11,106 nucleotides of DNA from an uncultured Cytophagaceae bacterium (lineage in GTDB: Bacteria > Bacteroidota > Bacteroidia > Cytophagales > Spirosomataceae): assembly GCA_903960725.1 (NCBI GenBank), contig CAJCBY010000220.1, positions 1 through 11,106 on the forward strand, written 5' to 3'. The notes beneath the pieces are model-generated. The model did not search any database. It was not told the origin of the DNA and saw nothing but the letters and a program-made list of their open reading frames with translations. Position 1 is the first letter of the stretch. Each line of letters begins with the position of its first letter. The position numbers and the translations under genes were made by a program. Shown piece after piece: positions 4,080-9,568 of the stretch.

Positions 4080-4988
4080 ATGAAATCCCTTTGGATACTT
4101 TTGATTTGTTTACCGGTTTTGGCCAAAACCTCATTCCCCGACTCACTCTTGATCGGGAACGTAAAAGTATACATCCATCCGTCCGCGAAAGCCATACTAG
4201 AAACGGAGCAAAAACGATTAGGCAGCAGCAAAAAATTCGTCGAAGGCATGAAGGAGAAAATGCGCTACTATTTCCCGGTGATGGAGCCATTGTTGCAATC
4301 TGCAGGGATTCCCAATGAGTTTAAATACCTCTCCGTACAAGAAAGTGGGTTAAATCCGGTGGCTGTTTCCACTTCTCAAGCCGTCGGATACTGGCAATTT
4401 AAGGCTGGAACTGCGACAGATATGGGACTGAAAGTGAATGAAAACGTGGACGAACGCAAGCATATTATCGAGGCTACAAAAGGGGCTGCAAACTACTTTA
4501 CCCGCAATAACCGCGTTTTAAATAACTGGGTGGGGACGCTTCTCTCCTACCGAATTGGTTTAGGGACAGCGAAGAAAACACCTTATGTGATGGATTGGGT
4601 GGGGAAATCAGACATTCAGGTGGATTCGACTACAGATTGGTATGTGCTGCGTTTTTTAGCCTATCAAAAATTCTGGGCTGATGAATTCAAAAAGGACGAC
4701 TCCCTAGGCATCAAACCTAGTAAACAATCCAAATTAGTGATCTATGACAATACCTGTGGTAAAAATCTATTTGAAATCGCAGATGAATTGAATTTTAGCT
4801 ATGATGACTTAAAGAAGCACAATCCTTGGATTTTGAATGATTTCGTTCCAGACGACAAGAATTACATTCTGTACCTTCCCTCCCATGTTCCCTTTTTCGA
4901 TAATTCGAAGCCCATTCCACAAATAAAAGAGCCTGAAGAATTTCTATTACCTCCCAAAAAGAAGTTAGATAACCCGCAGCAGGAATAA
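4080..4988 (+). CDS. Secreted lytic transglycosylase, SLT domain with LysM-like C-terminal region
   Basis: A peptidoglycan-cleaving transglycosylase of the MltD/Slt kind. A short hydrophobic signal sequence covers about residues 3-15 (cleavage plausible after LAKTS). The SLT domain runs from about 62 to 185: the GIPNEFKYLSVQESG segment holds the predicted catalytic Glu88, followed by SQAVGYWQF (99-107) and the later LLSYRIGLG segment (154-162). In this last segment the usual Ala-Tyr-Asn is Ser-Tyr-Arg, a variation noted without a known consequence. Residues about 218-267 (LVIYDNTCGKNLFEIA, then SYDDLKKHNPWI, then YILYLP) have the spacing of a degenerate LysM-like fold, suggesting a wall-binding module; this part is inference. 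The C-terminus is Pro/Lys-rich. It is a single gene divergent from the DUF3109 operon. Its last 24 bases overlap the tail of the convergent O-methyltransferase gene. Confidence 0.87.
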   Translation: MKSLWILLICLPVLAKTSFPDSLLIGNVKVYIHPSAKAILETEQKRLGSSKKFVEGMKEKMRYYFPVMEPLLQSAGIPNEFKYLSVQESGLNPVAVSTSQAVGYWQFKAGTATDMGLKVNENVDERKHIIEATKGAANYFTRNNRVLNNWVGTLLSYRIGLGTAKKTPYVMDWVGKSDIQVDSTTDWYVLRFLAYQKFWADEFKKDDSLGIKPSKQSKLVIYDNTCGKNLFEIADELNFSYDDLKKHNPWILNDFVPDDKNYILYLPSHVPFFDNSKPIPQIKEPEEFLLPPKKKLDNPQQE

Positions 4989-8038: not shown

Positions 8039-8096
8039 AGTGCAAAGAGGTGTTCTAAAAAATTTGAGCGTAATTTGTATGAAAATTCAATACCCT

Positions 8097-8657
8097 ATGA
8101 ACTTTTTAATCGTTGGATTGGGCAACATAGGCCCGCAATATTTATTTACACGACATAATATTGGTTTTATGGCGGTGGATTTTTTGGCCAAACAAAAAGA
8201 TATCTCCTTCAAAACAGATCGATTAGCCTCCATCGCTTCCTATAAAGAAAAGGGGAACACGATTTACTTGATTAAACCCACTACGTTCATGAACCTAAGC
8301 GGCAAAGCGGTGAACTATTGGCTTTCCTATTATAAGATCGAGAAAGAGAATATGCTAGTCTTAGTAGATGACTTGGCCATCCCTTTCGACACATTACGAC
8401 TGAAACCCAAAGGATCTTCTGGCGGACATAATGGCCTCAAAAGCATTGAAGGCGTTCTAGGTGGTACAGAATATCCACGCTTGCGAATGGGAATCGGGAG
8501 TGATTTTGCCAAAGGAAGGCAAGCCGATTATGTCCTAAGTAACTTTTCAGACGCAGAAATTGAGACAATTCCTTTCATTTTGGACAAAACCACGGATATA
8601 ATAGAATCATTCTGTGCTGAGGGATTAACGAAAACAATGAACAAATACAACCAATGA
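8097..8657 (+). CDS. pth: Peptidyl-tRNA hydrolase
   Basis: 186 residues, the bacterial Pth that releases peptides from peptidyl-tRNAs dropped by the ribosome. The N-terminus MNFLIVGLGNIG carries Asn10, and TRHNIGF carries the catalytic His20. KPTTFMNLSGKAV holds Asn66, VDDLAIPFDTLRLK holds the Asp at 92 that orients the His, and GSSGGHNGLKSI (107-118) holds Asn112. The numbering from ATG 8097 matches that of the E. coli enzyme (Asn10, His20), so this start is preferred over the in-frame ATG 8079 and GTG 8040, which would add unrelated residues. The gene is divergent from the SDR gene and is followed by a 248-bp AT-rich gap. TAATTTG at 8071-8077 resembles a -7 element with one base missing. 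Confidence 0.95.
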   Translation: MNFLIVGLGNIGPQYLFTRHNIGFMAVDFLAKQKDISFKTDRLASIASYKEKGNTIYLIKPTTFMNLSGKAVNYWLSYYKIEKENMLVLVDDLAIPFDTLRLKPKGSSGGHNGLKSIEGVLGGTEYPRLRMGIGSDFAKGRQADYVLSNFSDAEIETIPFILDKTTDIIESFCAEGLTKTMNKYNQ

Positions 8658-8905: not shown

Positions 8906-9364
8906 ATGAAGAAGACATTATTATTAGCTAGTTGTTTAATTGGATTAAACCTAGTTGCGGTTGCAGGAGAAGACGCACGTTCATTTAATCGTTCAAACGA
9001 TTTATCAGTAAAATCAGAAACTTTATCAGAAGTGATCACTTCGTTGATTCGCAAAGACGCTCAATTGAAAAGCGCAAGCGCAGCGAGTTTGACTATATCG
9101 ATTTTAGAAGATTTCCAAAATAACAAAGCTGAGTTCTTAAAAGTATCTGAATCAGAAAAAGTGGTTTTCAACCAAACCATTAAAACTATTTCTGAGCAAG
9201 GACAAAATTTTTCAGACACTAAGACGTTAAACTGGATCAAAGAAATTAATCAATCAGCAAAAAAGATCAACCTAGTTTGGTCCATTGTTAGCACTGAGCC
9301 AGTTATCGACAGCAATTTCGATAACAATTCAGAACAACAAGAGCACTTTATTGTTGTGTTGTAA
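8906..9364 (+). CDS. Small secreted protein of unknown function
   Basis: 152 residues that I do not recognise. Residues 1-20 form a signal peptide (MKK, a hydrophobic core LLLASCLIGLNLVAV, then AVA before Gly21), so the mature protein of about 132 residues is exported. An LASC sequence at 7-10 formally fits a lipobox, but the hydrophobic stretch before Cys10 is very short, so ordinary cleavage after AVA is more likely. The mature part has no cysteine, is rich in Ser, Asn, Lys and Glu, and reads as mostly helical (about 34-65 and 75-125), with a hydrophilic DNNSEQQEH stretch before a hydrophobic FIVVL end. No enzyme motif is seen. It is monocistronic, with the best promoter in the window, a possible operator, and two tandem repeat-plus-terminator units after it. 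Confidence 0.75.
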   Translation: MKKTLLLASCLIGLNLVAVAGEDARSFNRSNDLSVKSETLSEVITSLIRKDAQLKSASAASLTISILEDFQNNKAEFLKVSESEKVVFNQTIKTISEQGQNFSDTKTLNWIKEINQSAKKINLVWSIVSTEPVIDSNFDNNSEQQEHFIVVL

Positions 9365-9379
9365 TTAGATTGTTAGTAG

Positions 9380-9406
9380 TTTTCATAGTTAAATAGGTTT
9401 AGAGGT
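9380..9406 (+). repeat. 27-bp direct repeat, copy 1
   Basis: It begins TTTTCATAGTTAAATAGG and ends in GAGGT, and is identical over all 27 positions to 9502-9528. Copy starts are 122 bases apart. Downstream similarity continues at 9 of 12 aligned positions with one gap, up to the base of each hairpin. Confidence 0.95.
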
Positions 9407-9411
9407 AATCG

Positions 9412-9445
9412 AAAAAGGTGGAGTTTATAACTCCACCTTTTTTTT
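9412..9445 (+). terminator. Intrinsic terminator 1
   Basis: GGTGGAGTT (9417-9425), loop TAT, AACTCCACC (9429-9437): nine perfect pairs, extended to 14 by A5 before and T-run after. Eight T follow directly (9438-9445), then more T to 9455. A strong terminator for the + strand, ending unit 1 and any transcript from the secreted-protein gene. The A-tract also makes it partly bidirectional. Confidence 0.93.
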
Positions 9446-9487
9446 ATTTTTTTTTGCATTAAACTTATAAAATATCCACTAAAGCAT

Positions 9488-9495
9488 TATATTTG
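9488..9495 (+). promoter_or_regulatory. -7 element before repeat unit 2
   Basis: TATATTTG is a perfect TAnnTTTG. Seven bases on, the expected transcription start is 9502, exactly the first base of repeat copy 2. TTTG at 9453-9456 is too far upstream (31-base gap) to be its -33 partner, so the upstream element is unclear. Confidence 0.5.
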
Positions 9496-9501
9496 TATAA
9501 A

Positions 9502-9528
9502 TTTTCATAGTTAAATAGGTTTAGAGGT
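9502..9528 (+). repeat. 27-bp direct repeat, copy 2
   Basis: Identical to 9380-9406. Flanks diverge: 8 of 14 positions match immediately upstream, and no similarity is evident further up. Confidence 0.95.
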
Positions 9529-9534
9529 TAAACA

Positions 9535-9568
9535 AATAAGGCCAGAAGTTTCTTCTGACCTTATTTTT
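9535..9568. terminator. Intrinsic terminator 2, probably bidirectional
   Basis: AATAAGG (9535-9541) and CAGAAG (9543-9548) pair with CTTCTG (9552-9557) and CCTTATT (9559-9565) around a TTT loop, with one C-A mismatch at 9542/9558. Thirteen pairs in all. T-rich sequence follows on the + strand (9564-9573), and TTATTTGTTT follows on the minus strand, so it can end both unit 2 and metG, whose stop is about 30 bases away. Confidence 0.85.

Follow-up and report, generated by a model that had tools for sequence, protein, structure and literature searches.

Two repeat and terminator units between a small secreted-looking protein and metG

The window analyzed here, a stretch of 11,106 nucleotides from a freshwater bacterium, is contig C220 of a draft assembly (G000; 2.3 Mb, 84% complete) that, judged from its sequence, belongs to Aquirufa (Spirosomataceae, a family name taken from the title of PMC10821818) or a very near relative; its MetG is closest to those of Cytophagaceae MAGs, at up to 97%, and of A. 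antheringensis, at 96%. Its plus strand carries pth for peptidyl-tRNA hydrolase (8079–8657; PF01195), which is the conserved upstream neighbor of the locus described here, and a gene for a small secreted-looking protein of unknown family (8906–9364) without match in a Pfam search. The latter lies directly upstream of a pair of repeat units, the first of which begins 15 bp past its stop codon, and metG on the minus strand (9596 onward) forms the downstream flank. The small protein gene adjoins the pair in Aquirufa, and diverged relatives of it occur in some sister genera.

Each unit opens with a perfect 27-bp direct repeat, TTTTCATAGTTAAATAGGTTTAGAGGT, that is found on the plus strand at 9380–9406 (copy 1, predicted to act as a 5′ seed that is antisense to the region of a start codon) and 9502–9528 (copy 2, likewise a predicted 5′ seed), and the probability that such a repeat would arise within 122 bp by chance should be negligible. 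The block is followed after 10 (copy 1) or 11 bases (copy 2) by the GG of a 21-base hairpin at 9417–9437 (GGTGGAGTT-TAT-AACTCCACC) or 9540–9560 (GGCCAGAAG-TTT-CTTCTGACC), which form the cores of intrinsic terminators at 9411–9443 and 9535–9565 on the same strand. All seven inner pairs differ between the copies, six of them on both arms and one as a C-A mismatch; repeat, spacing, hairpins, and pair differences are exactly as an earlier note on this DNA had described them.

Two terminator-like sites were found compared with 0.1 expected in shuffles. RNA folding gave z = −5.0 for copy 1 (0/200 shuffles equally stable) and z = −2.8 for copy 2 (3/200), with minimum-energy folds predicting a weak helix of 4 to 5 bp at the end of the block. 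The predicted sRNA genes would span 9380–9445 (copy 1, ca. 66 nt) and 9502–9568 (copy 2, ca. 67 nt) on the plus strand. A covariance model built from copy-2 orthologues only (R1; 11 units, ten from Aquirufa and one from Arcicella) matches copy 1 with 66.7 bits and copy 2 with 99 bits, though the sequence of copy 2 is itself among the builders of the model.

Conservation, copy types, and promoter boxes

A 22-base core of the block, searched with 2 mismatches allowed and three positions free, is present in two exact copies in 34 of the 36 other genomes of the genus, the exceptions being G002 (83% complete) with none and G008, whose only copy lies at the end of a contig. No exact copy was found in the 22 genomes of other families in the same draw; eight of these hold places with one or two mismatches, and a control pattern also matches some. 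At E ≤ 1.3e-7, R1 matches 37 of 38 genomes of the genus and 25 of the 184 remaining family genomes, spread over nine further genera, with weaker matches in other genera (E about 1e-4 to 0.05) left out of these counts. The 57 units chosen by R1 (two from the window) retain the 22-mer exactly in 53 and the 27-mer in 50 cases, numbers to be read with the caveat that R1 itself favors the block, and an alignment of 54 copies is descriptive only since 21 of its positions were fixed by its own search. Conservation of block plus hairpin in relatives, which the earlier note had named beforehand as one half of the test of its proposal, was found across ten genera.

The same note had regarded the two hairpins of the window as covarying; two paralogous hairpins alone cannot demonstrate covariation, but the hairpins of their orthologues do covary. 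Exact matches to the block gathered 46 occurrences of copy 1 and 48 of copy 2 that reduce to 18 and 11 distinct 67-mers, respectively, with some loci representing one genome twice. In addition to folding and pattern, the terminator of copy 1 is supported by covariation in its 18 distinct orthologues, where 99.6% of hairpin cells pair with 15 double changes (0/500 shuffles) and pairing falls to 40% to 74% when the partner is slid, and that of copy 2 by pair counts in 11 distinct orthologues, where 98.1% of cells pair with 3 double changes (2/500 shuffles). The pair that is mismatched in copy 2 is C-G in seven, G-U in one, U-A in one, and unpaired in two of these 11 distinct relatives; given that it is standard in most of them, the unpaired state is confined to some lineages. 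Across 51 distinct units of the family, 207 double changes fall in 12 of 14 pairs (0/500 shuffles), in an alignment that was fitted to the structure. In all three groups examined, Aquirufa, other genera, and phages, the 52-mers downstream of the block reach mean folding energies between −18.1 and −18.8 kcal/mol, compared with −5.8 to −7.9 kcal/mol for mononucleotide shuffles.

The units are multicopy paralogues, with two in Aquirufa, at least three in six of the nine further genera, and up to seven per genome in several sister genera, mostly as tandem arrays. Array copies resemble copy 1 of the window (AGGTAA), and what we call type-2 copies resemble copy 2 (AGGTTAA, TAnnTTTG box). Genome G636 combines six type-1 copies, all within 0.8 kb, with a single type-2 copy; one type-2 copy likewise accompanies five type-1 copies in both G530 and G534, four in G633, three in G529, and two in G565. 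Four copies were found in G635, two in G586, and one in the fetched loci of G538 and the g219 genomes. A pth homologue is present in 12 of 16 sRNA loci examined from other genera, those lacking one being for the most part solitary type-2 copies or ends of contigs, which suggests a single inherited locus. In Arcicella aurantiaca (G633, contig C25), a lone variant unit lies directly before a tRNA-Met gene (L333, ca. 1700–1780; tRNA gene at 1779–1853).

Copy 2 is preceded by a −7 promoter box of the Bacteroidota TAnnTTTG type, TATATTTG (9488–9495, plus strand), which ends 6 nt before the block, and copy 1 by a weak −7-like box, TAGATTGT (9366–9373, plus strand), that aligns to it. Of 22 distinct Aquirufa copy-2 upstreams, 16 have a TAnnTTTG box 14 to 7 nt before the block and the other six have TATATTCG; the box is also present in all 11 type-2 copies of other genera, at a background of 0.007 per 25 nt. 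None of 20 distinct Aquirufa copy-1 upstreams has a TAnnTTTG box, with TAGATT kept in all 20, and none was found in 39 array copies. A promoter box overlapping the block of array copies was considered by eye and dropped due to its absence from many copies. Type-1 copies in four loci (L211, L217, L224, and L227) closely trail the preceding terminator and have no canonical Bacteroidota box.

The block as a complement of translation starts

The reverse complement of the block reads as a translation start, TAAACCTATTTAACTATGAAAA, and the antisense ORFs that begin there measure only 3 to 57 aa across the 34 copies tested, so that the block is not itself a gene start. Using the block complement with C-to-T changes allowed for G-U pairing and sRNA copies excluded, we found seven start-codon complements with at most 1 mismatch in eight Aquirufa genomes, distributed over three ortholog groups, and, with ATGAAAA kept, 11 at ≤ 2 and 23 at ≤ 3 mismatches; one of the eight genomes (G010) has no target at ≤ 2. 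A first-order null from 303 ORF starts of genome G007 predicts 0.0068 (≤ 1) and 0.086 (≤ 2) matches per 2500 ORFs, and a control with ATGAAAA kept gave 0 at ≤ 2 and 7 at ≤ 3 mismatches, an excess that has to be read knowing that the control is one pattern and that several matches represent one ortholog in related species.

The 11 sites at ≤ 2 mismatches are gene starts: four genomes contribute that of a BNR-repeat protein, two that of a carboxylesterase, and two that of a Kelch protein, with single sites at genes for a 3-keto-disaccharide hydrolase, a Porph_ging protein, and a product that has no Pfam match. Pfam identities were obtained for one member per ortholog group. Overall, the candidate targets comprise secreted and sugar-related genes, and their products include 3-keto-disaccharide hydrolases, GFO/IDH/MocA oxidoreductases, and a xylose-isomerase-like protein; a known link to sugars is absent for some, such as the Porph_ging protein and the one without Pfam match. 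Among 303 ORFs sampled from one genome, the three best duplex energies belong to a PD40 protein, a GFO/IDH/MocA protein, and a GH43 hydrolase. On these 303 start regions, full shuffles of the block equal the real one in 1/100 and 0/100 cases and shuffles that keep TTTTCAT in 12/100 and 6/100, meaning that the duplex energies of the real block are only slightly better than, and weakly different from, those of the latter.

In the genome of the window, two places outside of the sRNAs match the core with at most 2 mismatches, and both are starts of long frames, one a GFO/IDH/MocA gene (L003) and one membrane-transporter-like by eye (L004). The BNR-repeat ortholog in another genus (G586) has a start-site complement with 2 mismatches. 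Near-perfect targets are few in ten genomes of other genera, with nine non-sRNA rows at ≤ 2 mismatches, and five of the seven examined are frames of at least 64 aa. In G633, a block complement with 2 mismatches forms the start of a 64-aa frame (L322, 2724–2915) that by eye looks like a bacteriocin precursor.

The nearest known system, with a comparable mechanism, is that of the FopS sRNAs of Bacteroides thetaiotaomicron; the published account (PMC11697453) describes 14 of them as pairing with susC-type and glycoside hydrolase mRNAs at their start regions and as being antagonized by the RRM protein RbpB, and places the family in Bacteroidaceae as well as in a Caudovirales phage. We consider it likely that 9380–9445 and 9502–9568 are paralogous trans-acting sRNA genes of about 66 nt that block start codons by a FopS-like mechanism. 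The proposal of paralogous trans-acting small RNAs, made in the earlier note, gains support from the conserved block and hairpin in ten genera and from the compensatory changes, and is further backed by a promoter box of the copy-2 type at the required position and by a block that no gene start explains. Each RNA would start at or just before TTTTCAT and leave its 5′ seed mostly single-stranded; the seed would then pair with translation-initiation regions (ATGAAAA plus ca. 15 nt upstream) and keep ribosomes off the mRNA, resulting in repression of mainly secreted and sugar-related functions. Given that the block mirrors the start of many mRNAs, the predicted sRNA pair probably switches off nutrient-scavenging genes.

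It seems unlikely to us that these are real RNAs whose block mainly binds a protein, RbpB-like or other, and that act as decoys or sponges without pairing to mRNAs. The near-invariance of 27 bases would exceed what a short pairing seed needs, FopS is described as bound sequence-specifically by RbpB (PMC11697453), and an RRM protein is encoded by 18 of the 25 non-Aquirufa genomes with strong sRNA matches (the seven without are G586 and six g219 genomes). However, the block spells the complement of a start codon, and RRM_1 (PF00076), present in 117 of 222 family genomes, was not found in 37 of 38 Aquirufa genomes, where the core is unchanged; the lone match (G451) is weaker (E 6e-11) and comes from a draft with 4% contamination. 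Some unit-bearing genomes thus encode such a protein and others do not, and Aquirufa unexpectedly lacks the type of RRM protein that partners FopS. Under the start-codon-blocking mechanism that we favor, the Aquirufa RNAs would act in the same way without a detectable RRM protein. From the fetched loci, we had the impression that arrays are larger in RRM-bearing genera.

We regard it as very unlikely that the locus is an element at the DNA level, i.e., tandem terminators with a repeated protein-binding or recombination site and no independent RNA. The closeness of copy 1 to the preceding stop codon and the resemblance of arrays in other genera to tandem duplications would fit such an element, but the promoter box lies at a fixed distance, the order of block and terminator is conserved, and phage copies bring their own box (see below). 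We find it hardly credible that the block would instead be translated from the minus strand, opening short peptides behind a leader hairpin. Its reverse complement does contain AACTATGAAAA and opens frames of 12 aa (copy 1) and 9 aa (copy 2), but the antisense ORFs have no common length among the 34 copies and the poly-T tails come after the hairpins on the plus strand.

Copies in phages and comparison with known systems

The exact 27-mer occurs in one and the 22-mer in 18 IMG/VR contigs, each with a match to R2, a model built without FopS, that includes the terminator, and a TAnnTTTG box was found in 13 of 14 distinct upstreams of exact phage copies. One of these loci (L317) holds an array-type copy (4716–4786) next to a pair of tRNA-like genes and also encodes terminase and portal proteins. 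An Erf-like gene lies in the examined stretch of nine of the 18 contigs with the 22-mer. Of 80 loci gathered by their Erf protein, ten hold the exact 22-mer and are contigs already among the 18, and in 57 the stretch upstream of erf contains, on the strand of that gene, an R2 match at E ≤ 0.003; a further locus (L423) has its match farther upstream, and some of the 80 end short upstream of erf. In 27 of these units inspected by eye, TTTTCATA and AGGTTTA are retained, a TAnnTTTG-like box is often present, and the length of the linker varies. Examples of Erf-phage loci with block and terminator are L351, L353–L355, L358, L363, and L364. Searches with blastn found no match of copy 1 in annotated phages or of copy 2 in plasmids, and no literature on phage-encoded sRNAs in Bacteroidetes was found among open papers.

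We tentatively propose a class of start-codon-mimicking sRNAs that is common to Bacteroidota and their phages, in which the phage unit (box, TTTTCATA, linker, and AGGTTTA) upstream of an erf-like gene might rewrite host translation of surface or sugar genes and the Aquirufa RNA would run without an RRM partner. On this view, one lineage of phages would have retained the unit, with a TAnnTTTG box of its own, as its version of a regulator of the host. If true, phages would here have borrowed a regulatory RNA from their hosts, in a phylum whose sRNA biology is known from few species.

A refinement that is compatible with the start-codon-blocking reading is that the units are diverged true FopS homologues from a common Bacteroidota ancestor, which we see as possible yet somewhat less than probable. 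In the genome of the window, copy 1 is the top match of the FopS covariance model RF04319 (E 0.03), R2 suggestively matches RF04319 loci in G286 (2/2), G407 (1/1), and G294 (1/1), and FopS loci have a similar TAnnTTTG-to-seed layout. However, RF04319 scores copy 1 with 28.4 bits and copy 2 with 20.7, not reaching the gathering cut-off of 56, and has no match at E ≤ 2 in the five array loci and ten phage loci tested; R2 matches in G403 are not FopS (0/2), none was found in G450, and the agreement of R2 may be explained by a common TTTTCATAG and hairpin layout. Beyond TTTTCATRGT, an alignment to FopS as good as the real one was reached by 217 (copy 2), 438 (copy 1), and 275 (array) of 2000 shuffles; among 303 antisense gene starts, 3, 15, and 15, respectively, did as well. 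Convergence on start codons would look alike, and in FopS-free genomes seven of the nine R2 matches tested lie antisense to the starts of real genes, as do four RF04319 loci (L141, L144, L146, and L153); none of these were counted as sRNAs. With a score below the cut-off and similarity beyond TTTTCATRGT within chance, we did not accept membership in FopS (RF04319); the shared architecture suggests that the units work like FopS. Matches to the Rfam families sraA, HrrF, and L20 leader do not reach the cut-off and owe most of their score to the terminator, and we attribute them to chance. Units composed of TTTTCATAGGATAAGGTTTA and a terminator occur at L143 and two further places in G447 and at L142 in G147 (another family of the same class); they are below the RF04319 cut-off, have antisense frames of just 21 and 10 aa, and are perhaps a further related sRNA family.

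No literature on Cytophagales sRNAs was found by title among open papers. Enterobacterial tandem sibling sRNAs such as OmrA and OmrB are adjacent and share the same 5′ end but differ in their 3′ parts; they belong to another phylum, and their likeness to the units described here is one of arrangement. According to the published account (PMC11697453), GibS of B. thetaiotaomicron has the R1 seed in common with FopS and likewise targets translation-initiation regions by pairing but, as a difference from our units in a comparison by description, has a second seed (R2). Like FopS, the Spirosomataceae units are multicopy, with folding and pattern indicating a single-stranded 5′ seed that begins with TTTTCATRGT and is followed by a terminator hairpin, and a TAnnTTTG box lies just upstream in the FopS loci examined; the FopS account (PMC11697453) describes pairing to start-codon regions and one phage carrier. 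Unlike FopS, the units score below the Rfam cut-off, differ in the extension of the seed, are clustered in tandem largely beside pth, and occur in Aquirufa without RRM proteins, and no SusC gene is among the predicted targets examined. The long, near-unchanged seed and the few near-perfect targets make direct tests simple. FopS has been described as a system of Bacteroidaceae tied to RbpB, and a similarly built family that exists in Spirosomataceae both with and without RRM proteins constitutes a natural experiment on the requirement for this protein.
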